A stretch of 46,272 bases of DNA, taken from the IMG/VR virus record IMGVR_UViG_3300009151_000115, positions 1-46,272 of that record; one strand, given 5' to 3'. The position numbers and the translations under genes were made by a program. The DNA is from a virus. The notes under the pieces were generated by a model. That model made no database searches and had not been told where the DNA came from. It was given only the letters and a program-made list of their open reading frames with translations. Below, one piece after another: positions 4,820-28,191 of the stretch (position 1 is the stretch's first letter; each line of letters opens with the position of its first letter).

Positions 4820-5472
4820 CTCTATACGACGGTAATAAAAGCATCACATTTGAAATATGGATGCAGACTTTTGCGACGGCTTCAATAACTGAATTTAACA
4901 GTGGACAAGTACGCAATGGAGTTAGCTGGATGCCAATTCGTCGTGGTGAAACTTCTGTGCAATTTTCTATATCATGGCCATTGGTTGGCACAAGCAAAGC
5001 CGCTGATCTTGGGTTTGAAAATTTTGACCCTAAAGATGGTTTTGGTAAAATGCAACATTTCCAAGATATTATGAGAAAACATCAGCAATCTCTTGTTAAT
5101 GGTAGTACAAATACCCCCATGATATTAAACTATTACAATAATAGTGATAAAAGTTCGCCAATTTACAACACGCTTATTAGCCAACAACCTTTGTCTTCTT
5201 TGAAATATAGCGGTTGGATTCAACAAGTAGAAAAAAACTATATTAGATTTCAAAATGTCTATATGACAAACTATAATATGATAGTGATTAATCCTAATAC
5301 AACTAGCATAACTGCTGCAAATACTCCTTCTTATCTAAATTCAACAACTAGTGTTAAATCATCAACCACTTTTGCACCAACCGCTGCTACGCAAAATGCA
5401 TATGGTTCAAATTGGATCAACGTTAATGTATTAGTTTCCGGTACCAACTTAATTCAAGGATTGCCAAAATAA
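4798..5472 (+). CDS. Putative baseplate or tail protein
   Basis: A 224-aa protein of beta-rich, Asn/Thr/Ser/Gln-rich composition like the two before it. The ATG at 4798 has only a weak GAAAG upstream, and an in-frame TGA at 4783-4785 limits upstream extension, so translation is probably coupled to the 57-aa frame it overlaps. It ends by overlapping the hub start (TAATG). Its position suggests a baseplate component; family not recognised. Confidence 0.5.
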   Translation: MAGNATVTLYDGNKSITFEIWMQTFATASITEFNSGQVRNGVSWMPIRRGETSVQFSISWPLVGTSKAADLGFENFDPKDGFGKMQHFQDIMRKHQQSLVNGSTNTPMILNYYNNSDKSSPIYNTLISQQPLSSLKYSGWIQQVEKNYIRFQNVYMTNYNMIVINPNTTSITAANTPSYLNSTTSVKSSTTFAPTAATQNAYGSNWINVNVLVSGTNLIQGLPK

Positions 5473-8189
5473 TGGGTCTTAATAACGCAGGTACTTTTAC
5501 TTATACACCAGATATTAGCTGCACTATTAGCACGTTAAAAAATGGTGTTCTTGACGTATCTAATGATATAATGAATTTTCAAGTTACTCGCAATTTAAAT
5601 GCAGTTAGTACTTTTAACGCTACGCTTGCAAACCCAAGACGCAAATATAACCGTGTAATTAATACTATGGACAAAATTACCGTGTTCCTTAAAAGAACTA
5701 ATTATGTACAAGTTTTTACAGGTTATGTAACGTTAGCACCTATTGAAACATTGGTTCCTACACCCATTCAAATCCAAGCATCGTGCACATTAAGAAACCT
5801 CCAGCAAACATACTGGGATGACACTTTGTTGGAATACCAATCATTGCTACTTAACTACATGGATAGTTCTGCAGCTAGCAGCAATGCAACTTTAAATGAT
5901 GGTGGTGTCTCGCAAGTTGTTGTTAATTTATTAACTAAGGTAGCCGGTTGGGATCCTAGTAGAATTCATGTTGCACCAGTTCCTCAAAAATTTCTTGATT
6001 TAGCTGGTACTATTGCTAAAAACCAAGATAATTATAATAGCACAATCAATCAAACCACAGTACAAACTATTGCAACTATTGTTGGTGTTAATAATATTAC
6101 TAGCGGTCAAAGTAATTCTAACAATAAATATGTTTATGGTAAACAACAAACTGTAAAAGATACTGCTGCACCAGATGGTGGCGTGGGAACTAATTTTTCT
6201 GTATCAAGAGCTATAGCTTTAAAAACTGCAGCTATAAATGGTAAAAATAAACAATATTTTCCTGGACCAAGTTCAATGAATCCAGTAAGTCTTAATAAAA
6301 CCGATGAAAATATTTATTATTGCAGTGTTCCATTTTCTTATATAACTAATCCTGATCCAAATATTATTAATAATGCTAAAAGTTGGATTTCTGAAAATGC
6401 TTATAATTCAAAAGATAAGTATAACGGAAGAATGTTGCTTCTCACAAATACTAAAACCAATAGAGTTGTAGCACTTAGAGCAACAACTGTAACTCAAAAA
6501 GTCGATAAAGATGGCAACCTTGTTTATCAAAATGGTTCCACTGTAGCAGAACCTAATTCTAACGCTGTGCAATGTCACCCTGGAGTTGTTGCTTATCTAA
6601 ATGCCGCCATTGGTGACCCAACTCAATGGAGCAATAAAGTTGCTGTTGATTATGCATATATTGAAATATCATGGGCTGATCAATCTCAAGTATCATCACC
6701 AGGCCCTCAACAAGTAATTCAACAATCTACCATAACCAATACTCAATCATATCTTGGTATCAATTCACAAAACAATGTTACTTCTCAGGTTCTTACAAGT
6801 GCTGTTGAAGCATTAAATTATTACCTACGCCAACAATTTGGTGCTCAATATAGTCAAGATACTAGTGGAGCTCATTACCGTGAAACACCAAACACTCCAG
6901 GTAAAAATAGCGGTGGTTATTTTGACTGTTCTGGTTTAGTACAATGGGGTTACCGACAAATTGGTATTACAATTGGTGGAAACACTTATTCGCAATTTGG
7001 TACTGGTAGCAACTCTGATAATAATAAATGTGGTCTATGGATTCCACCTAATCAAATGCCAATCCCAGGTGATTTGCTGTTCTGGGATGTTCCTAGCGAT
7101 GGTTCTAAACAACCAGGTCACGTAACTTACCTTGAAACTCCATTTATAAACGACAAAGCAACAATGATTCAATCATCTACCTATGGCAAACCTGTAGGAG
7201 AAAGTCCTGTTTATTGGTCACAAATTAAAAATGGCGGAAGCCCTCCTGGTTGGGGAATGTCATATATGGGTGCTCGTAGACCATTAACTCTACACCCAGG
7301 TTGGGGTCAATACTTTAGACAATCTGTAACAGTACCAAGTACATCTGCCAATGCTAATTATTCAACTACCGAAACTTCTACATTGGTTACTGATATTCAA
7401 GGATGGAATACTCAATGGATATCACCTAATTACAACATTGTTGCTTCTACAATCCAAGGTACTCCAAGAGCGTTTATATTGGATAATCCATTAATGCAAG
7501 ATTTGCATCAAGTAGTGCAAGCTGGATTAAGAACATATATGAGTGCTCCCAACGGAGATTTTGTAGCTTGGTTTCCTGATTGGTATGGAATTTATGGTAT
7601 GGATCCTGTAATGGAAATATGTGATATTGAAATTATTGACTTCCAAATTTACCACAGTGATGATGCATTAGTTACTCACGTAGCAGTTATTGGTGATACT
7701 TCAGGTATTGGTCAATCTATTAACATTGTTGACTACATGAGTACCAATGGTGTTGTTAGTATTCAAGATGTTACCACTATGCAACTTTTATTTGGTCAAC
7801 AAGTAGGTAATACTGCAACTGACCAACAAAATGCTCAAATTGCTCTCAATTTCTTACAAAGATATGGCATTCGACCATTTCCACAAGAAGTAAATGTTAT
7901 CCACAGCCACGCTCTTGAATATTTCTTTGGTCTACAAACTTTTATGCAACAATGGGCAAACCAATTTACAAGCAACGTAACGCTTACTTTTATGCCAGAA
8001 CTATACCCTGGTATGAGAGTTGTTCTTAACCTTGACAATGAAAGCGGCGGTCAAGATCAATACCAATTCTATTGTGTATCAGTAACACACAATGGTGACC
8101 GAAGTGGTGGGTTTACTACTCAGGCAACGATGACTGCTCCAATGAAAAATGGAACAGTTATGCATTACGGACTGGAGTTTGTACAATGA
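5472..8189 (+). CDS. Baseplate hub protein with internal NlpC/P60 peptidoglycan hydrolase
   Basis: A 905-aa tail-tip protein. The first ~130 residues resemble gp27/gpD-type hubs (beta-rich, with FTGYVTLAPIE). Around residues 445-610 sits an NlpC/P60 cysteine peptidase: FDCSGLVQWG with catalytic Cys486, then PGDLLFWD, then GHVTYLE with His550. C-terminal residues 640-905 return to hub-like beta structure. NlpC/P60 enzymes cut the peptide stems of peptidoglycan; at the tail tip this would open the wall during DNA injection. Actinobacterial walls are common targets of this family. The gene overlaps both neighbours by one to four bases. Confidence 0.8.
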   Translation: MGLNNAGTFTYTPDISCTISTLKNGVLDVSNDIMNFQVTRNLNAVSTFNATLANPRRKYNRVINTMDKITVFLKRTNYVQVFTGYVTLAPIETLVPTPIQIQASCTLRNLQQTYWDDTLLEYQSLLLNYMDSSAASSNATLNDGGVSQVVVNLLTKVAGWDPSRIHVAPVPQKFLDLAGTIAKNQDNYNSTINQTTVQTIATIVGVNNITSGQSNSNNKYVYGKQQTVKDTAAPDGGVGTNFSVSRAIALKTAAINGKNKQYFPGPSSMNPVSLNKTDENIYYCSVPFSYITNPDPNIINNAKSWISENAYNSKDKYNGRMLLLTNTKTNRVVALRATTVTQKVDKDGNLVYQNGSTVAEPNSNAVQCHPGVVAYLNAAIGDPTQWSNKVAVDYAYIEISWADQSQVSSPGPQQVIQQSTITNTQSYLGINSQNNVTSQVLTSAVEALNYYLRQQFGAQYSQDTSGAHYRETPNTPGKNSGGYFDCSGLVQWGYRQIGITIGGNTYSQFGTGSNSDNNKCGLWIPPNQMPIPGDLLFWDVPSDGSKQPGHVTYLETPFINDKATMIQSSTYGKPVGESPVYWSQIKNGGSPPGWGMSYMGARRPLTLHPGWGQYFRQSVTVPSTSANANYSTTETSTLVTDIQGWNTQWISPNYNIVASTIQGTPRAFILDNPLMQDLHQVVQAGLRTYMSAPNGDFVAWFPDWYGIYGMDPVMEICDIEIIDFQIYHSDDALVTHVAVIGDTSGIGQSINIVDYMSTNGVVSIQDVTTMQLLFGQQVGNTATDQQNAQIALNFLQRYGIRPFPQEVNVIHSHALEYFFGLQTFMQQWANQFTSNVTLTFMPELYPGMRVVLNLDNESGGQDQYQFYCVSVTHNGDRSGGFTTQATMTAPMKNGTVMHYGLEFVQ

Positions 8190-9610
8190 GTGTAACAGGT
8201 CAAAAGTATGATACTAAATCTGGTGTACGCAAAGTTACCCTAACGTCTAATCCACAAATTAATCCCCTTAGCAATACAGCTGGTGCTTCCCAAAATTACT
8301 ATTGTCTTGGTTTTGATCAAAATGGTTTTCAATATCAAATTGACCTACAAGCATTGCCAGCTGGTGTAGTTCTTGATCAAATTCAACAGAATCAAGTCTG
8401 GTGGGTAGAAAAACGCACTACTCTTTATAGACTATATCTATATGCCGGTTTGTTTGATCCCAATACACGTCAAATTAATAGCACTGCTTTATTGCCAGCA
8501 CCAGCAACTAGCAGTCTTAACAATGTAACAGTTGCTAGTGGAATATTAATTAATGGATCATTAAGCATTGGCAACATTGCTATAAGTGGTGGTCAAACTA
8601 CAACTGGTTATGTATTAACTGCTACAAGCCCAATTGAAGCATCATTTCAACCACACCCTGTTAGCGTTTCAACTCCTCCAGGAGTAATGCTTGATTATGC
8701 TGGAGCAACAGCTCCAAGTGGATATTTGCTTTGCGACGGTTCTAACTATTCTACCACTACTTATGCTGCCCTATTTGCCGCAATTGGCTATGCATGGGGT
8801 GGATCAGGCACTAGTTTTAATGTACCGGATATGCGAGGAAGAGTATCTATTGGAGCTGGTTCTGGAACTGGTCTTACAAATAGAACTTTAGCAACAAAAA
8901 GTGGTGAAGAATATCACACTCTTGTTACTGCAGAAACACCTTTAGCAACTCACACCCACACGTTTACAGTACCAAGTTCTACAGGAACAACCAACACAGG
9001 TACAAGTTCTAGCGTAAGTTTAAATACATCTGGCGGTTCTACTGGTACCGGTGCTACAGGTGGAGGTACCACTGGTACGGGTACTACCGGTACAGGAAAC
9101 ACTGGTACAACCACAACTTCAGCAGGAACTGGAAGCATTAGTTCGGGTGTAACTGGTACAGGTAACGCAGCTATTGCAGACCCAGGCCACTCACATGGAC
9201 CTCCAGCTGCTGGTAACTACATTGCAAGAAACACTGCCGGTGCTTTCTTAGCTGGTACTGGTGCAGCAGCATTTTCTCAACAATCTAGCACTGCTAGTGC
9301 TACTACTGGTATTTCTGACACGGGTCACGCTCACAGTTTAGCCGGGGTTACTTTTAGCATTGGTGCTCTTACTGTTAATTCTGCTTCCATTCCAGGACTT
9401 TCCATTCCAGGACTTTCCATTCCATCTCTTTCTATTCCATCTCTTTCTATTGCCTCACAAGCAGTTACAGGTAGTGTAGCCATTCCTGGTCTTGGTTTTA
9501 CAGTGCCTGCCCAAACGGGGCTTACAACCAGCGGAAACACCGCTACAACAGCTTCTGGCCACAATAACATGCAACCATATGCCGTGGTTACCAAGATTAT
9601 CAAGTACTAA
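8186..9610 (+). CDS. Tail fibre with phage collar domain
   Basis: A 474-aa protein. Residues about 163-228 form a phage tail collar domain (PSGYLLCDGS, then FNVPDMRGRVSIG), as in microcystin-dependent proteins and short tail fibres. The end, NNMQPYAVVTKIIKY, is the classic terminus of this family. Between them lie a Gly/Thr-rich low-complexity region (about 265-328) and a pentapeptide repeat of the type SIPGL/SIPSL (about 401-420). The N-terminal ~110 residues probably attach it to the baseplate. Likely role: host recognition. It overlaps the hub stop by ATGA. Confidence 0.8.
   Translation: MSVTGQKYDTKSGVRKVTLTSNPQINPLSNTAGASQNYYCLGFDQNGFQYQIDLQALPAGVVLDQIQQNQVWWVEKRTTLYRLYLYAGLFDPNTRQINSTALLPAPATSSLNNVTVASGILINGSLSIGNIAISGGQTTTGYVLTATSPIEASFQPHPVSVSTPPGVMLDYAGATAPSGYLLCDGSNYSTTTYAALFAAIGYAWGGSGTSFNVPDMRGRVSIGAGSGTGLTNRTLATKSGEEYHTLVTAETPLATHTHTFTVPSSTGTTNTGTSSSVSLNTSGGSTGTGATGGGTTGTGTTGTGNTGTTTTSAGTGSISSGVTGTGNAAIADPGHSHGPPAAGNYIARNTAGAFLAGTGAAAFSQQSSTASATTGISDTGHAHSLAGVTFSIGALTVNSASIPGLSIPGLSIPSLSIPSLSIASQAVTGSVAIPGLGFTVPAQTGLTTSGNTATTASGHNNMQPYAVVTKIIKY
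9386..9445 (+). repeat. Four tandem 15-bp units in the fibre gene
   Basis: Units at 9386, 9401, 9416 and 9431. The first two are identical (TCCATTCCAGGACTT) and the next two are variants ending CCATCTCTT. Each encodes five residues (S-I-P-G/S-L). A fifth, degenerate copy begins at 9446. The in-frame unit length allows expansion or contraction without breaking the gene. Confidence 0.9.
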
Positions 9611-18865: not shown

Positions 18866-19267
18866 ATGGAAAATTTAACAGTAGATTATAAATGGCAAGA
18901 TGATGCCATATGTGCTAAACTAGATCTCTCAATGTTCTATCCAGCGCATGGACAAAAATATTCCAAAGAAGCTATTGAAGCTTGCAAGATTTGTCCAGTT
19001 AGTTATGAATGTTTAAAGCATGCTTTAAAGTATGAAGAACATGGGTACTGGGCTGGTACAACGCCAGTGCAACGTGTCAAACTTCGTAAAAGCATGGGCA
19101 TAAAAGTAGAAAACATTACGTTTGAATCTGATAAAATTGTCAAGGAAGAATTGCTGAAAAAAGCTGAAGCTGTTTCTAATCAAAAGATTAAAGGCCGTGG
19201 CAGAAAACCATACAAGAGCTTGACAACAAACTATGTTGATGGTACTATCCTAGATGAAGATCTATAA
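18866..19267 (+). CDS. whiB: WhiB-family iron-sulfur transcription regulator
   Basis: 133 residues. Four cysteines, Cys16, Cys40, Cys43 and Cys49 (C-X23-C-X2-C-X5-C), would bind a [4Fe-4S] cluster, and GYWAG (60-64) is the family's tryptophan turn. The C-terminal KGRGRKP (109-115) resembles the AT-hook used by WhiB7-type proteins to grip AT-rich DNA. The family binds region 4 of the main sigma factor and redirects host RNA polymerase; phage copies can repress host whiB genes. The ATG has no ribosome site and sits just after a strong RNA structure. Family call is secure; its target promoters are not known. Confidence 0.95.
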   Translation: MENLTVDYKWQDDAICAKLDLSMFYPAHGQKYSKEAIEACKICPVSYECLKHALKYEEHGYWAGTTPVQRVKLRKSMGIKVENITFESDKIVKEELLKKAEAVSNQKIKGRGRKPYKSLTTNYVDGTILDEDL

Positions 19268-19277
19268 GGAGTAGCGG

Positions 19278-20573
19278 ATGAATAAGACTCGAGTGCTTGC
19301 GTGGGGTGACTACGCATGCAGTACTGGATTTGGCACTGTAATGAAAAATATTATGGGAGAATTGCAAAAATCAGGTCAGTATGAAATTGATGTAGTAGGT
19401 GTTAACTACGATGGTGGTCCATACGATACTAATAAGTGGCCTGGTACTCTATGGCCAGCTATTAGTGCTCTTCGCACACAAGGACCATACGGTGACGTAT
19501 TTGGTCGTCAAGTATTTCTTGACATGTTAGCACAACGTCCATACGATTTGGTTTTTATTGTGCAAGATACGTTTATTGTGCTTGACATCGTTACTCAGAT
19601 TGCTGAACTACAGAATACTAAGCCAGGTAGTTTTAAAACTATTTACTACTACCCATTTGATTGTGGTCCACGCGAAGAATGGGTTACTAAGTGTGTTGCT
19701 CATTTTGATTACCCTGTTGCTTATACTGAGTACGCTAAGAATGAAAGTCGCAAGTTTATTGGTGAATTTGCAGATGACCAACATGTTATCTATCATGGAA
19801 CTAACACTAAAGACTTTTTTGCTATGGATAAGTTAAAAAGAGCTGAAGCACGTAATCAAATTTTTCCAGAACAAATGCGTGATAAATTTATTGTTACCAA
19901 TGTTAACCGCAATCAGGGTCGCAAGGATATCTCGCGTAGTCTTATGATTATGAAAGAAATTGTAAACCGTGGCGTGGAAGATGTATTTCTTTACATGCAC
20001 ATGCAAGAGAAAGACTTCGGTGGCAGTGTTTTAGAAATGGCACGTGCAATGGGTCTTGATCCAAATAAACACTTCACAGTTCCAGATCCACGTCAATTTG
20101 GTGCACACAGTGGATTTCCTGTCGAATTTCTGAACGGTATCTACAATGCTAGTGATGCATACCTAACCACTACTCATGGTGAAGGTTGGGGATTGAGTAT
20201 TACCGAAGCCATGGCTACAAAGCTACCAGTAGTTGCACCACGCAATACCAGTGTTCCAGAAATCCTTGGAGAGAATGCTGAACGTGGATGGATTGTTGAT
20301 AGTGGTCACACGCCTTCTCACTGGATTATCAAGGACAACGACAATGAACGTATGCGTCCTTTGATGAGTGTAGAACAAGCAGCTGATGCTATTCTATATA
20401 TTAAGGATAATCCTGAAGAAGCACAAGCTAAGGCTAATCTTGCTCACGATTGGATCCAAGAGCACACATGGACTAATATTTGTAAGCAATGGAAACTTCT
20501 CTTTTCAGAAGCAAAAAAGAGTCTTGAAGATAAACGTAAGATTTTGGCCTCAGTGCCACCAAAGATTGGATAG
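19278..20573 (+). CDS. Glycosyltransferase, GT4 type (GT-B fold)
   Basis: 431 residues. The N-terminal Rossmann-like domain carries a Gly-rich loop (STGFGTV, 15-21). The C-terminal domain has the E-X7-E motif, Glu302 to Glu310 (EGWGLSITE), that binds the nucleotide-sugar donor, followed by MATKLPVVAP and VPEIL. The strong AAGGAG (19266-19271) supports this start. In actinophages such enzymes have been linked to sugar decoration of capsid or tail proteins; modification of DNA bases or host surface glycans is the alternative. The sugar donor and acceptor cannot be read from sequence. Confidence 0.85.
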   Translation: MNKTRVLAWGDYACSTGFGTVMKNIMGELQKSGQYEIDVVGVNYDGGPYDTNKWPGTLWPAISALRTQGPYGDVFGRQVFLDMLAQRPYDLVFIVQDTFIVLDIVTQIAELQNTKPGSFKTIYYYPFDCGPREEWVTKCVAHFDYPVAYTEYAKNESRKFIGEFADDQHVIYHGTNTKDFFAMDKLKRAEARNQIFPEQMRDKFIVTNVNRNQGRKDISRSLMIMKEIVNRGVEDVFLYMHMQEKDFGGSVLEMARAMGLDPNKHFTVPDPRQFGAHSGFPVEFLNGIYNASDAYLTTTHGEGWGLSITEAMATKLPVVAPRNTSVPEILGENAERGWIVDSGHTPSHWIIKDNDNERMRPLMSVEQAADAILYIKDNPEEAQAKANLAHDWIQEHTWTNICKQWKLLFSEAKKSLEDKRKILASVPPKIG

Positions 20574-21505: not shown

Positions 21506-21578
21506 GCCCTAGTAGCTCAACGGATAGAGCATCGGAGTTCTAACCCGCAGGTTGCAAGTTCGAGTCTTGCCTGGGGCA
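21506..21578 (+). tRNA. tRNA-Arg (anticodon UCU)
   Basis: A 73-base cloverleaf: 7-bp acceptor (GCCCTAG/CTGGGGC), 4-bp D stem (GCTC/GAGC), 5-bp T stem (GCAAG/CTTGC) with loop TTCGAGT, and discriminator A. The loop GTTCTAA gives anticodon TCT (21539-21541) for AGA/AGG codons, frequent in this AT-rich genome. CCA is not encoded. The anticodon stem TCGGA/CCCGC has mismatches at both ends (T-C and A-C) and G instead of a pyrimidine at position 32, so it is somewhat degenerate. Confidence 0.9.
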
Positions 21579-21600
21579 CATAGTAAAGTAAAGGAATAGT

Positions 21601-21939: not shown

Positions 21940-22288
21940 ACTTAGTGTAAGCATTGGAGCTACGCTTCAGGTAAAAAACGAAAAAGGTGACTGGGACTGG
22001 ATTAAACCAGAAGTGGGTTGTGAGGTTAAGTTGATTGATGGTGAAATCAAAGCTGAAACAATGCCATCACAATTTGCTGCTATGTGGGATGAAATTGTAG
22101 GTCCTCAGTTTGCATCAGTAGTGGTAGAACTTTTAACTCAACAAACTTCTAAAGAACAAGAGGCTGTTGAAGAAACAACAGAAGATGATACCATTGTTGA
22201 TGAAGCTGTGTCGTCAGAAGAATTTATTGAAAAGCTTGAATCGATTATGGAAGATAGCACAGTTAATGATGATGAGGAATATTACTAA
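21929..22288 (+). CDS. Hypothetical acidic protein
   Basis: 119 residues. The first ~70 residues alternate strands and helix (GATLQVKNEKGDWDWIKPEV). The last ~45 are very acidic and probably disordered (EETTEDD, DDEEYY). AAAGGG upstream serves as ribosome site. Similar two-part proteins occur in actinophages without known function. It ends on the start of the next gene. Confidence 0.6.
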   Translation: MEIKLSVSIGATLQVKNEKGDWDWIKPEVGCEVKLIDGEIKAETMPSQFAAMWDEIVGPQFASVVVELLTQQTSKEQEAVEETTEDDTIVDEAVSSEEFIEKLESIMEDSTVNDDEEYY

Positions 22289-22434
22289 TGCAAGTTTGGG
22301 TTGTAACCACTAAGGAAAAGAACAAAGTAGTTGGCGTTTACTCAGAAGCTGAGTATGCCAAGAAAAATATTAAGAATCCTGAGAATGTAAACATTCAAAA
22401 GATTCAAGTGAACGCTACTCTTAAAAAAGGATAA
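22288..22434 (+). CDS. Small basic hypothetical protein
   Basis: 48 residues with strand-helix-strand periodicity (QVWVVTTKEKNKVVGVYS, then SEAEYAKKN). It overlaps the previous stop (TAATG) and ends 2 bases before the Ntn hydrolase start, so it is likely co-translated with it. Family not recognised. Confidence 0.5.
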   Translation: MQVWVVTTKEKNKVVGVYSEAEYAKKNIKNPENVNIQKIQVNATLKKG

Positions 22435-22436
22435 TC

Positions 22437-23009
22437 ATGACAGTATTGGCTGCTGCAATTACAAAACAAGACGGTATTGTTATGGCTGCTGATTCTCAAT
22501 TTTCTTGGGACTATTCTAAGAGTGATGAGGGACCTAGCAAATTGTGGATTGACAAAGAACGTAAGTTTATTTTTGGTGGTTGTGGTAGTGTTAGAGCAAT
22601 GCAGGTAGTACAACATTGGACTGAATGGCCAGAATTTCGTGAATTTCATTGTGATCATGTTGAACAATTTGTTGTTAAAGATGTTGTTCCGTCCATGAGA
22701 ACTGCTCTTGATGAACACGGTGCTTTGGAAACTTCTAAAAAAATTCAAACATTCGATGCTGGCATTATTATGGCTTGGGATAATACATTGATTTCAATTG
22801 ATGAAGACTTTTCAGTTACTATTCCAGTTAGTGGAAGATGGGCAATGGGATCAGGTTCTAGCGAAGCTTTTGGCAGTCTAGGTGATACTGGTCCATGGAC
22901 TAAAGCAGATGTTATTAAAGCTGCTCGTGTTGCAACAAAAACCGCTTTAGGTGTTGGTGGAGATATCTACTACGTAACCACAAAAAGCATGGAAATCAGA
23001 AAGGCGTAG
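22437..23009 (+). CDS. Proteasome/HslV-like Ntn hydrolase
   Basis: 190 residues. Removal of the initiator Met would expose Thr2 as the N-terminal nucleophile, as in HslV. The family's further catalytic positions fit: Asp19 in VMAADSQ and Lys35 in GPSKLW, each shifted by one from the classical Asp17 and Lys33. GGCGS (near 48-52) and GSGS (near 137-140) match conserved proteasome-fold turns. The length fits HslV (about 175-180 aa). No HslU/ClpX-type unfoldase is seen in the window, so it may act alone, with a host partner, or on virion proteins. Fold call is good; substrate unknown. Confidence 0.75.
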   Translation: MTVLAAAITKQDGIVMAADSQFSWDYSKSDEGPSKLWIDKERKFIFGGCGSVRAMQVVQHWTEWPEFREFHCDHVEQFVVKDVVPSMRTALDEHGALETSKKIQTFDAGIIMAWDNTLISIDEDFSVTIPVSGRWAMGSGSSEAFGSLGDTGPWTKADVIKAARVATKTALGVGGDIYYVTTKSMEIRKA

Positions 23010-23072: not shown

Positions 23073-23762
23073 ATGCCACAAAATTATATTATGCCCAAGA
23101 AGAAGGAAGTTACTACTACCAACCTTCGGGAGGTTACGGAACCTACCTATGGGGAATCAGCCAAAGCTCCAACCAGAGCTGACATTCGTCGCAACAGTGC
23201 TGATGAGAATGGCCTTGTAGTAGCTGTAGAAGCATTCAGTGTACTCAATGAAGTCATGTACACAAGTGATCTCAGTGAAGTTCGACCATTGGCCCCAGTA
23301 GAAATTGATATGCTTGCTGCTGAACTTGTAGCAGTTCGTACGGCTAAAGATATTGTTGAAGGACGTGAAGCTGCTATTAAGAAGTATGCTACTGAAGTCA
23401 TTGACCTTAAAATTAACATGCAAGGCGATGATCCTGCTTCCACCAGTGGATACCTTGTTAGTCCTGAGAATGGTATAAAACTCTCCAAAGAAGTATCTGG
23501 TGGAAAACTTGCTGTGGACATTGATCTTCTTGAAAAAATTCTGGATGATGATCAATTTAAGTCAGTTGTTAATGTCGTAGAGACTATTACTAAAACTCAG
23601 ACCCCAGATGGCAAAGTTACTACTGTTGCATCTATTGTCCATGAACTTAACGAAGATGCGTTAGAAAAGCAACTTAAACTTGGCAATATTGGTATGGAAC
23701 AAATCGTTCAAGCTACTACTCCAGGTAAGGTGCGTTCAGCATTTTATGTCAGAAGTCTCTAA
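23073..23762 (+). CDS. Hypothetical protein at head of the replication module
   Basis: 229 residues. The basic N-terminus (PKKKEV) is followed by a long helical region (about 55-110) and a mixed second half. No recognised motif. AAGGAG 7 bases before the ATG and its own promoter suggest early, efficient expression. Gp157-like recombination accessory proteins have comparable helical layout, but no real evidence links them. Confidence 0.6.
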   Translation: MPQNYIMPKKKEVTTTNLREVTEPTYGESAKAPTRADIRRNSADENGLVVAVEAFSVLNEVMYTSDLSEVRPLAPVEIDMLAAELVAVRTAKDIVEGREAAIKKYATEVIDLKINMQGDDPASTSGYLVSPENGIKLSKEVSGGKLAVDIDLLEKILDDDQFKSVVNVVETITKTQTPDGKVTTVASIVHELNEDALEKQLKLGNIGMEQIVQATTPGKVRSAFYVRSL

Positions 23763-24084
23763 AAGACCACAACGCACACCATCAATACGCGATAACATTC
23801 CCATGTACACACAGGGTATGGCTGCAGCATTCTTTGATTTACGACCAGAAGCATTTCGTGCTAAGGAACGTCATTACAAGAATCACATAGATATTCAAAG
23901 AAGTGCTGCAGGCACACGTATGTATAGCTTGAATGATATACTGAAGATAGCTCACTTTCTTAGGAAAGTGGATAAGATGACAGACCGTCAACTTCGGTTA
24001 ATCATCTTAAGAGTTGATGCCTTTAAAGAACCTATAAAGAAAAGTCGCAAGAGATATCGCAAAGGCAATTACGACAATGAATAA
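23746..24084 (+). CDS. Putative MerR-like helix-turn-helix protein
   Basis: 112 residues from the ATG at 23746, overlapping the upstream gene by 17 bases; a distant in-frame start at 23680 is unlikely. The central segment GTRMYSLNDILKIAHFLR has the R-x-Y-S-L-x-D-I-x-x-I-A pattern of the MerR/excisionase winged helix. The end is very basic (KKSRKRYRKG). It could regulate transcription or act in replication. It overlaps the exonuclease gene by 8 bases. Confidence 0.5.
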   Translation: MSEVSKRPQRTPSIRDNIPMYTQGMAAAFFDLRPEAFRAKERHYKNHIDIQRSAAGTRMYSLNDILKIAHFLRKVDKMTDRQLRLIILRVDAFKEPIKKSRKRYRKGNYDNE

Positions 24085-25030
24085 AAAAACATTACTATTA
24101 ATTGACGGACATAATATTTTTATCCGTAGTTTCAGCGGTTTAATGCGTCATGGTCTTAGTGCTCCCAATGGAGAAGGTACGTGGGGCGCTTATGGTGCAT
24201 ACAACGTTATAACCAGCATGATTAGAAAATATGAACCTAGTCACGTTCTTATTGCATTCGATAAAGGTCGTAGTACTAAACGTCTAGCTATTGATCCCCA
24301 ATATAAAGCTAATCGCCATAAAGCTAGCGACAAACCACGTACTGCTATTGATGATGCATTTGCCACTGAATTCAAACCACAAATGGCTACGTTTATGAAT
24401 TTATGTTTGAAGAGTGGTATACCTTACATGAGTTTGGAAGGTGTTGAGGCTGATGATATTATTGCTACTGCAGCACTTAAACATTCCACTATTTTTGATA
24501 AAATTATTATTGTTAGTGCAGACCACGATTTACACCAATTAATTCGTGAAAATATTATTGTTGTTAAACCAAGCATCAGTTATAAAGATATTGATGCTGA
24601 AGTATACGATACAGAAGCTATAAAAAATGAATGGGGCATAGCACCAGAAAGATTATCAGAGATCTGGGCACTTATGGGTGACAAAGGTGACAATGTCAAA
24701 GGTATCCCAGGTATTGGTCCTAAGAAAGCTACCAAGCTTATTGCCGAGCATGGTGACCTAGATACTGTTCTTAAATTAGATGATGCAAAAATTAAAGATA
24801 ACATTGATGTTGTAAAAATAGCTAAGCGACTTATTGAGCTTGATGTAGACGATGAATTGCCATTTCCTCCATTGGGTGATCTTCAATTTACACCAGTACG
24901 TCATGGTGGTCCTAACGCCAGAGCTTTGGATGAATTATTTGTTAACCTTGGCTTTACGCAGATTAGAAGTCGCTGGTATCACAACAATCTTTGGAATGAT
25001 GTGAGAAATTTTGGCAGGAGTCTTAATTAA
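24077..25030 (+). CDS. 5'-3' exonuclease, PolA N-terminal/FEN type
   Basis: 317 residues. Metal-binding acidic residues are visible at Asp10 (LLLIDGHN), Asp62, Glu124/Asp126/Asp127 (EGVEADDI), Asp149/Asp151 (SADHD) and Asp202/Asp205 (GDKGDN). The helix-three-turn-helix GIPGIGPKKA (209-218) binds duplex DNA. It would remove RNA primers and flaps; as a stand-alone protein it complements a DnaE polymerase that lacks this activity. Confidence 0.92.
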   Translation: MNKKTLLLIDGHNIFIRSFSGLMRHGLSAPNGEGTWGAYGAYNVITSMIRKYEPSHVLIAFDKGRSTKRLAIDPQYKANRHKASDKPRTAIDDAFATEFKPQMATFMNLCLKSGIPYMSLEGVEADDIIATAALKHSTIFDKIIIVSADHDLHQLIRENIIVVKPSISYKDIDAEVYDTEAIKNEWGIAPERLSEIWALMGDKGDNVKGIPGIGPKKATKLIAEHGDLDTVLKLDDAKIKDNIDVVKIAKRLIELDVDDELPFPPLGDLQFTPVRHGGPNARALDELFVNLGFTQIRSRWYHNNLWNDVRNFGRSLN

Positions 25031-25032
25031 AC

Positions 25033-26085
25033 ATGGTTAATTGGGTTATCAATCCTTCACTAGATATGCCAACTGTATTAGAACAATACGGTAGGTTTTT
25101 AGAAGACGACTATAGAATGCTTATTGAATCGTTGAGAGTTCCTCATTCATTTGATGAATATTCAGAAAAAACTAATAGAAGGTTTATTATAGCTAGCGGC
25201 AAGGAAAGACCAGGGCTTATAGCTAAAAGCGTGTACCTGTGTATTAAATTGGCTGGTCCAGAAAGCGTTAGTGTATACGTACAAACATTAGATGAAATGT
25301 TCCTTGTACAGAATGTTTTTGAGTATTATGCAAAAGACATAGAAACTAAATTGTTTGCTAATCCCCTTGATTTTTTAAATTTAAGTAAAGACTGGAGGGA
25401 TGAGATTGAAAAAGCTACCGATATCATTGTTTATGGTGATGATCAAACTATAGAAAAATGGCGTGAATACGAAACCGTAGATCGTCACATATGGGAACAC
25501 GGTTTGAGTTTTGGTTTTGGTGTAGTTAGGGCGGAAGATCTTGGTCAATCAATTATTAACGAAATATGCTTTGACTTTTTTTGTTATTATGGTGAAGGAA
25601 GATTGGCACCAAAATTTTATTTTATTGTTGGAGAATATTCAGCTAGTTTAATTGAAAGTTTTGCTATGAATATAATGGTTAATTACGCTCCATTTATAGA
25701 AGCTTACAGGAGCAAGTTGCCGTTTACACGCAAGAGTGATCTTACACGAGAAGTACTGGGTGCTTCTTATTACGCAAAATATGTTCGTTCTTTTCATTTG
25801 AAATCTAAAGAACTTTTTGCTACACTCTACGGTGATGTAAGATTCGTGTTTGTTGATAATCTTGATGATATTGAAGAGTTTGTAGAAAAATGGAGAGAAA
25901 ACATAGGAACTGTCGCCGTCGATTGGGATGACGAGGATGTTATTGATATCATGGAAGATAACATGATACCTCGTATATGCCACATTGGCGATATGCAATT
26001 TCCAGATTTTTTTGAGCAATACGATACATTAGATGATTTTAATATCTATGTCAGTGATGACATGGGCACAGATGGTCTTATATAA
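25033..26085 (+). CDS. LuxC/aldehyde-dehydrogenase-like protein, catalytic Cys possibly lost
   Basis: 350 residues. Three stretches resemble LuxC-type acyl-CoA reductases: IIVYGDDQTIEKW (131-143), like the GGDE nucleotide-site segment; HGLSFGFGVV (156-165); and FCYYGEGRLAPKFYF (183-197), like the GxGCLSP active-site segment. In the last, Arg190 stands where the catalytic Cys is expected; Cys184 is nearby. The resemblance is by eye and remote. If correct, this is a fold re-used without the usual chemistry, or with a shifted nucleophile. It follows the exonuclease by 2 bases. An unrelated phage protein remains possible. Confidence 0.4.
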   Translation: MVNWVINPSLDMPTVLEQYGRFLEDDYRMLIESLRVPHSFDEYSEKTNRRFIIASGKERPGLIAKSVYLCIKLAGPESVSVYVQTLDEMFLVQNVFEYYAKDIETKLFANPLDFLNLSKDWRDEIEKATDIIVYGDDQTIEKWREYETVDRHIWEHGLSFGFGVVRAEDLGQSIINEICFDFFCYYGEGRLAPKFYFIVGEYSASLIESFAMNIMVNYAPFIEAYRSKLPFTRKSDLTREVLGASYYAKYVRSFHLKSKELFATLYGDVRFVFVDNLDDIEEFVEKWRENIGTVAVDWDDEDVIDIMEDNMIPRICHIGDMQFPDFFEQYDTLDDFNIYVSDDMGTDGLI

Positions 26086-26977: not shown

Positions 26978-27419
26978 TGGTGAACCTGTCAACTATGACA
27001 GTGATAGCTACGATGAAATTGTTGTAATAAAAGTAGCAGAAAGCAAGGAAGAGTTGGTAGCTGGTATTGATCTAGCAAATGCTCAACCTCGTGATTTACT
27101 CATATACTTTGCTGATCGGTTCAAAGAAACACATGGTTACACTTACAATATTGAATGGGTAAAAGAATCAGCTATCTTTAAGAGTTTTAAGGAACGATAC
27201 GGACTTGACGCAGGTCCCATGGTTGCACTACTCTTTGACAATCACAAAGGCAAGCTCAATGATTTGGTGATGACAGCAACAGCATTCAGTAAAGGTAGTA
27301 AATGGATTCAGGATACTTTGTACATTGAACTACAACAACAAAAACTTAAGAACGAGAATAGAAATAGTACGGAAGGATTAATGAATACCAATGACTTCAT
27401 TGAACGATTCGCTGTTTGA
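26958..27419 (+). CDS. Hypothetical protein before the helicase loader
   Basis: 153 residues from the ATG at 26958, with GGAG 6 bases upstream (a longer frame from 26868 is less likely). A helical central domain (residues about 45-125) and a charged Asn/Gln-rich end. It lies directly before and overlaps the DnaC-like gene, so it may be a replication accessory factor. Family not recognised. Confidence 0.55.
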   Translation: MEKKSFDGEPVNYDSDSYDEIVVIKVAESKEELVAGIDLANAQPRDLLIYFADRFKETHGYTYNIEWVKESAIFKSFKERYGLDAGPMVALLFDNHKGKLNDLVMTATAFSKGSKWIQDTLYIELQQQKLKNENRNSTEGLMNTNDFIERFAV

Positions 27420-28191
27420 TTGGGAAAAGGATTACGTCAACCTAAAATATGAATTCCTTGATGATGAGGAAATCGATTACTTAGAGCAGAAGTATCCTCA
27501 GTTTGAGAAATTTACAAAGCAGGGATGCCCTACATGTACCGATGGTTCATGTGGTGATTGTAAACTACAACTGCAATTGTATAAACATTATTCACGTGCA
27601 GGTATTGGTCTTAACTACCAACGTCTTAATTGGTCAGACTTTAATGGTGACGAGAAAGCTTTGGCGTTAGCTAGGATCTATCTTGGACAACACAAAGATT
27701 TTGTAAAAGGTGGTATGGGAATTCTCTACCACGGTACGTGGGGTACAGGCAAAACATTGCTCACTAGTCTTATTGCTAAAGAGTTGGTCAAGCTTGGCTA
27801 CAGTGTATACTTTGCTACATTCACTCAGATGGTTGACGAGTTCACCAGAGGGTGGGGCAGCAATGATGACAAGGCACGTTTTGAGAGCAAAGTTGTTAAG
27901 AGCGATGTATTCTTTCTGGATGACATTGGTAAGGAATTCCGTACCAAGAACAATTTGAGTGAAGCAACGTTTGACCATGTAATGCGTCAACGCGCGTTGG
28001 ATAATCGTCCTACGTTTATTACTACCAACATGGGTATTGATGAATTGATGGATGGTTACGGTGGTGCTATATTTTCTCTCCTAAAGGAAAGAGTAATTGA
28101 GCACAACATGGATGGAATTGACTACCGTGAATACGCACGTAATCGTACACTTGATGAAATCAAGGACGGAACAGTAAGGAAGATTCAGTAA
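27391..28191 (+). CDS. DnaC/IstB-like helicase loader ATPase
   Basis: 266 residues. An N-terminal zinc site, Cys46, Cys49, Cys54 and Cys57 (C-X2-C-X4-C-X2-C), is followed by an AAA+ core: Walker A GTWGTGKT (115-122), Walker B VFFLDDIG (173-180), then FITTNM (sensor 1) and LKERV (arginine finger region). It would load the neighbouring DnaB-like helicase onto single-stranded DNA. The gene overlaps the previous one by 29 bases and touches the helicase start. Confidence 0.88.
   Translation: MTSLNDSLFDWEKDYVNLKYEFLDDEEIDYLEQKYPQFEKFTKQGCPTCTDGSCGDCKLQLQLYKHYSRAGIGLNYQRLNWSDFNGDEKALALARIYLGQHKDFVKGGMGILYHGTWGTGKTLLTSLIAKELVKLGYSVYFATFTQMVDEFTRGWGSNDDKARFESKVVKSDVFFLDDIGKEFRTKNNLSEATFDHVMRQRALDNRPTFITTNMGIDELMDGYGGAIFSLLKERVIEHNMDGIDYREYARNRTLDEIKDGTVRKIQ

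Follow-up and report, generated by a model that had tools for sequence, protein, structure and literature searches.

The window, a 46,272-base virus record representing a fragment of a freshwater actinophage, encodes a protein that is well supported by sequence profiles and structure prediction as a proteasome/HslV-type Ntn hydrolase. With a probability of roughly 0.5, we regard it as a phage group I proteasome homologue, a threonine peptidase that acts independently of ATP, probably forms a ring and is encoded together with replication genes. Phage-borne proteasome homologues are already known; the window protein is a new, deep-branching member. Proteasome-type proteases with an intact catalytic set were common in actinophage genomes, above all in freshwater contigs, and the gene has at least three kinds of neighbourhood, lying alongside replication genes, close to WhiB or adjoining the portal gene. 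This would bear on the use of proteolysis by phages against hosts which possibly have proteasomes of their own.

The 190-aa protein starts with the sequence MTVLAAAITKQDGIVMAADSQ, and AAGGA, resembling a ribosome-binding site, lies just 5' of the open reading frame. On the complement only a shorter chance frame of 114 aa (22404-22748) was present. Thr2, Asp19 and Lys35, named as the catalytic set in the preliminary description, stand at the positions claimed. They are accompanied by Gly47 at the oxyanion place and a GSG motif at 138-140. Thr2 and Asp19 were unchanged in all 139 distinct relatives, even in those with 17-30% identity, and the lysine equivalent to Lys33 (Lys35 in the window protein) was present in 139/139. 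Arg53, Gly138, Gly140 and Ala144 were likewise constant across the 139 relatives; Gly50 was conserved in 138 and Gly47 in 133 of them. For 133/139 relatives the lysine is located 13 residues N-terminal of the conserved Gly50. In the window clade (6/139) it precedes Gly50 by 15 residues, and the hairpin is longer by two residues. In nearly all family members the start codon is found immediately before the threonine, without a propeptide. Within the clade, pN was 0.08-0.16 versus a pS of 0.56-0.82; selection on the gene is purifying.

In PHROGs, the window protein matched phrog_1040, 'peptidase HslV family' (E=3.5e-14), and this profile was matched in 16 of 16 records checked. With the window protein or the profile of its close clade (A1), searches by phmmer against PDB and in Pfam and NCBIfam gave nothing or weak matches. 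Pfam yielded no match for the single protein. In NCBIfam the archaeal proteasome beta model was matched weakly (E 0.02), and TIGR03692 (HslV) was not matched at E<=10. The A1 profile found no match in PDB and matched HslV weakly. These results are due to the divergence of the window clade, for which a wider alignment was needed. PF00227 (Proteasome) was matched by 52 of 63 relatives and TIGR03692 by 57 of the 63 (E < 0.01). A profile of these 63 sequences matched HslV (1m4y, 7.2e-13) best in PDB, and BPH (5ovu) with 5e-10. Its comparison with E. coli HslV by hhalign gave a probability of 97.3 (E=2.2e-11), and the catalytic residues were aligned with those of the E. coli enzyme. Thus, the link from the window clade to HslV and the proteasome passes through more distant relatives of this clade.

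AlphaFold modelling, which covered the monomer, was performed with the 63-sequence alignment and predicted an alpha-beta-beta-alpha sandwich (pLDDT 84.7, pTM 0.82). Strands were placed at 3-9 and 13-19 and helices at 52-61 and 69-93; the model also has a central sheet and two more helices. In Foldseek it matched proteasome and HslV chains with E of about 1e-8, a probability of 1.00 and moderate TM scores of 0.56-0.65; for phage HslV-like models TM values up to 0.83 were reached. The profile matches, the predicted fold and the conserved catalytic residues thus agree with the proteasome/HslV-like Ntn hydrolase proposed in the preliminary description. Neither of the two conditions named there as refuting it, a model lacking the sandwich or catalytic residues out of register with HslV, was observed. 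The conserved Thr, Asp and Lys, the fold and a pN far below pS suggest that the protein is maintained and presumably an active hydrolase.

Close relatives, 72-99% identical to the window protein, are encoded on 15 contigs. Scans that started from more distantly related phage proteins detected at least 80 loci each, the second at least 576 confirmed stretches. Hence the family is very common in IMG/VR and occurs on hundreds of contigs. It was found in WhiB-bearing contigs, in DSL-LC01 and in the cultured Arthrobacter phage Hum25 (gene 81) and Microbacterium phage Pumpernickel (gene 135), with which the function of the family can be tested in a simple system. In a FastTree phylogeny of 75 sequences rooted with E. 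coli HslV, the window clade had a support of 1.0 and joined an actinophage-type clade at 0.89. The next group to join (0.90) comprised plasmid proteins from Rhizobiales, Streptomyces and Paraburkholderia together with the proteins of Geobacillus phage E3 and Vibrio phage 166E36-1. The plasmid relatives of the DSL-LC01 protein were mostly from Rhizobiales, plus Streptomyces. The window clade is a deep lineage within a common phage family and neither HslV proper nor PPH. The phrog_1040 phages Vibrio phage JSF10, Geobacillus virus E3 and Actinomycetia phage DSL-LC01 share with the window protein the fold, the catalytic set, the Met-Thr start and the absence of HslU. In contrast, their sequence identity to the window clade amounts to only 23-32%; this clade forms its own fully supported branch and differs in the longer hairpin, whose two extra residues lie before Gly47, as well as in the lysine spacing described above.

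The group I homologues AAH, CPH and PPH were described by Fuchs, Alva and Lupas in 2021 (PMC8665760). AAH was reported from alpha-proteobacteria, Actinobacteria and phages; for none of the three were biochemical data given, a function assigned or co-occurring AAA+ partners found (PMC8665760). The occurrence in actinophages adds to this survey, which reported no AAH there (PMC8665760), and we found no functional work on phage HslV in actinophages in the literature. Like AAH, the window protein is a compact group I homologue with an arginine at the start of helix 1. In agreement with the published description of AAH, the model of the window protein contains both helix pairs, no S12/H5 extension and no propeptide (PMC8665760). 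The window protein and the actinophage proteins stand beside plasmid proteins of Rhizobiales and Streptomyces, which have the distribution of AAH (0.90). However, the phage proteins group separately from their bacterial counterparts, in a clade with a support of 0.89, and the relatives identified here are from actinophages. CPH, the cyanobacterial proteasome homologue, is also a group I homologue found in phages and Actinobacteria (PMC8665760). Given the plasmid relatives, AAH/CPH-like is the most suitable name for the window protein, where both classes were compared by their published description and are not told apart.

Further known homologues fit less well. PPH, the proteasome homologue of phages and their hosts, is phage-borne too, but is only about 140 aa long and has no helix H2 (PMC8665760), whereas the window protein has 190 aa and a long second helix predicted at 69-93. 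HslV shares the predicted fold, Thr/Asp/Lys and the GSG motif. HslV proper was rejected, as no HslU was found in 15 records and no match of the window protein to TIGR03692; moreover, the family signature Arg53 is not present in E. coli HslV. BPH, the beta-proteobacterial proteasome homologue and also of group I, apparently functions without an unfoldase (PMC8665760) and was matched by the profile as mentioned. Its sequence is distant, and its long acidic pore loop is not seen in the window protein, which has about 7 residues between the helices. For the actinobacterial 20S beta subunit PrcB a propeptide is expected. The window protein has its start codon directly before the threonine and did not match TIGR03690.

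Genome context was compared within the clade (see the table). The same two genes follow the Ntn gene in all compared window-clade relatives, even where the upstream genes differ. The order 3' of this triplet is exonuclease, DnaC-like loader, DnaB-like helicase, primase, DnaE-like polymerase and UvsX/RecA-like recombinase. For the DnaE-like polymerase, the nearest relatives were those of Rhodococcus phages E3 and Finch and of I3-type Mycobacterium phages. WhiB is a recognised actinophage marker (PMC6802176, PMC10202952). Both genes point to a host that is very probably an actinobacterium, in line with the host assumed in the preliminary description.

Table: Features of the window around the Ntn hydrolase gene, and one portal-adjacent relative (positions refer to the window unless an accession is given)
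Feature	Position	Strand	Remarks
Tail/virion structural protein	5472-8189		Upstream of Ntn gene
WhiB-family transcription factor	18866-19267	+	
Glycosyltransferase, phrog_2170	19278-20573		Adjoins WhiB; clade-conserved
tRNA-Arg (TCT), single	21506-21579		Just upstream of small-gene cluster preceding Ntn gene
48-aa ORF, weak phrog_3002	22288-22434	+	Ends just 5' of Ntn gene
Proteasome/HslV-like Ntn hydrolase (predicted)	22437-23009	+	190 aa, ATG start
229-aa DUF7242/phrog_2808 protein, function unknown	23073-23762	+	Always directly 3' of Ntn gene in clade
112-aa protein, function unknown	23746-24084	+	Third gene of conserved triplet
5'-3' exonuclease	24077-25030	+	First of adjoining replication genes
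350-aa protein	25033-26085		No PHROG match, sub-threshold LuxC match; clade-conserved
DnaC-like helicase loader	27391-28191	+	AAA+, not an unfoldase
HslV-like gene, ct2KA10 type	OX376641.1 17155-17691		Directly after portal gene

For the preferred reading, a stand-alone threonine peptidase, the following course may be proposed. Removal of the initiator methionine before threonine is usual; the host methionine aminopeptidase would thus expose the threonine as N-terminal nucleophile, which Asp19 and Lys35 would activate. The subunit probably forms a homo-oligomeric ring of beta type. It may act similarly to BPH without a dedicated ATPase of HslU or Clp type, presumably independent of ATP, and could cleave short or unfolded stretches of proteins from host or phage. 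Because the gene adjoins replication genes, activity would be expected from early to middle infection.

An alternative is a role in virion morphogenesis, in which portal, scaffold or capsid proteins would be trimmed by the ring or its subunit while the head is assembled. In the ct2KA10 type, a sister subfamily for which portal and terminase were identified, all 65 of 65 distinct loci had the HslV-like gene directly 3' of that for the portal. This is the position at which many phages have the head maturation protease. For the DSL type, another portal family was encoded within a few genes in 12/64 loci, but most members have no portal nearby. Neither portal nor terminase was found near the window-clade gene, which is flanked by WhiB and glycosyltransferase genes and by the replication genes. 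Thus, head maturation is plausible for the portal-adjacent subfamily and less so for the window clade, for whose protein we consider it unlikely. The ct2KA10-type protein is possibly a prohead protease of the Ntn type; if true, it would be the first Ntn-type head maturation protease, and this sister subfamily is the more intriguing lead compared with the window clade. That the family includes stand-alone, ATP-independent infection proteases, acting in head maturation in the portal-adjacent subfamily and in host takeover beside the replication genes in the window clade, is a tentative and rather doubtful reading. WhiB was encoded within flanks of about 4-8 kb in 28 of the 64 distinct DSL-type loci (e.g. 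the locus with 7884-8837), and a functional or regulatory link between it and the HslV-like gene is possible there.

Docking of the subunit on a host AAA+ ATPase (Mpa/ARC or Clp), by which host proteolysis would be redirected, was also considered. The actinobacterial host indicated by WhiB and DnaE is in favour of it, as many Actinobacteria possess proteasomes. However, Mpa and ARC bind pockets of the alpha ring, whereas the window protein resembles beta and HslV subunits, and no docking element was identified in it. HslV is not recorded in Actinobacteria (Table 1 of PMC8665760); host HslU is therefore not expected and docking to it is unlikely. In general, host docking appears improbable. The same holds for a non-proteolytic Ntn enzyme, e.g. 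a connectase-like peptide ligase or a specific amidase. Connectase demonstrates that proteasome homologues can act as monomeric ligases (PMC8665760), but it lacks the first helix pair and carries a two-helix insertion between S3 and S4; the window model has both helices (52-61 and 69-93) and no insertion.

The preliminary description had stated that the protein is encoded without an unfoldase partner. This applies to the window, where the DnaC-like loader was the sole AAA+ protein found, and to HslU/Clp-type ATPases (AAA_2), none of which was detected in 15 records of up to 133 kb, which may be incomplete. However, all seven clade contigs that reach far enough carry, roughly 40 kb downstream from the Ntn gene and on the opposite strand, a gene for a MoxR-type AAA+ protein (AAA_5) of about 250 aa; the window is too short to reach this position. 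In stretches taken from three clade contigs the gene was located at 1255-2016, 1417-2172 and 1249-2004. A small secreted-looking, transglycosylase-like protein precedes it. This distant gene leaves some room for an AAA+ partner encoded by the phage. AAA_5 genes were found in DSL-LC01 and Pumpernickel, too, but none above the cut-off in the protease-carrying records of ct2KA10, JSF10, Geobacillus E3, 166E36-1 and Hum25. Large phages commonly encode MoxR ATPases, which are not known to drive Ntn rings. In view of the distance and the different strand, we consider the MoxR-type ATPase a very unlikely partner. A catalytically dead decoy is hardly credible with Thr, Asp and Lys completely conserved.

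Bacterial relatives were searched for in GTDB. The A1 profile detected none, and the A3 profile a single phage-like contig binned as a Gammaproteobacterium. On JAURLY010000091.1, a contig of a Gammaproteobacteria MAG, an HslV-like gene was found with a WhiB gene nearby; this is probably a mis-binned actinophage contig.
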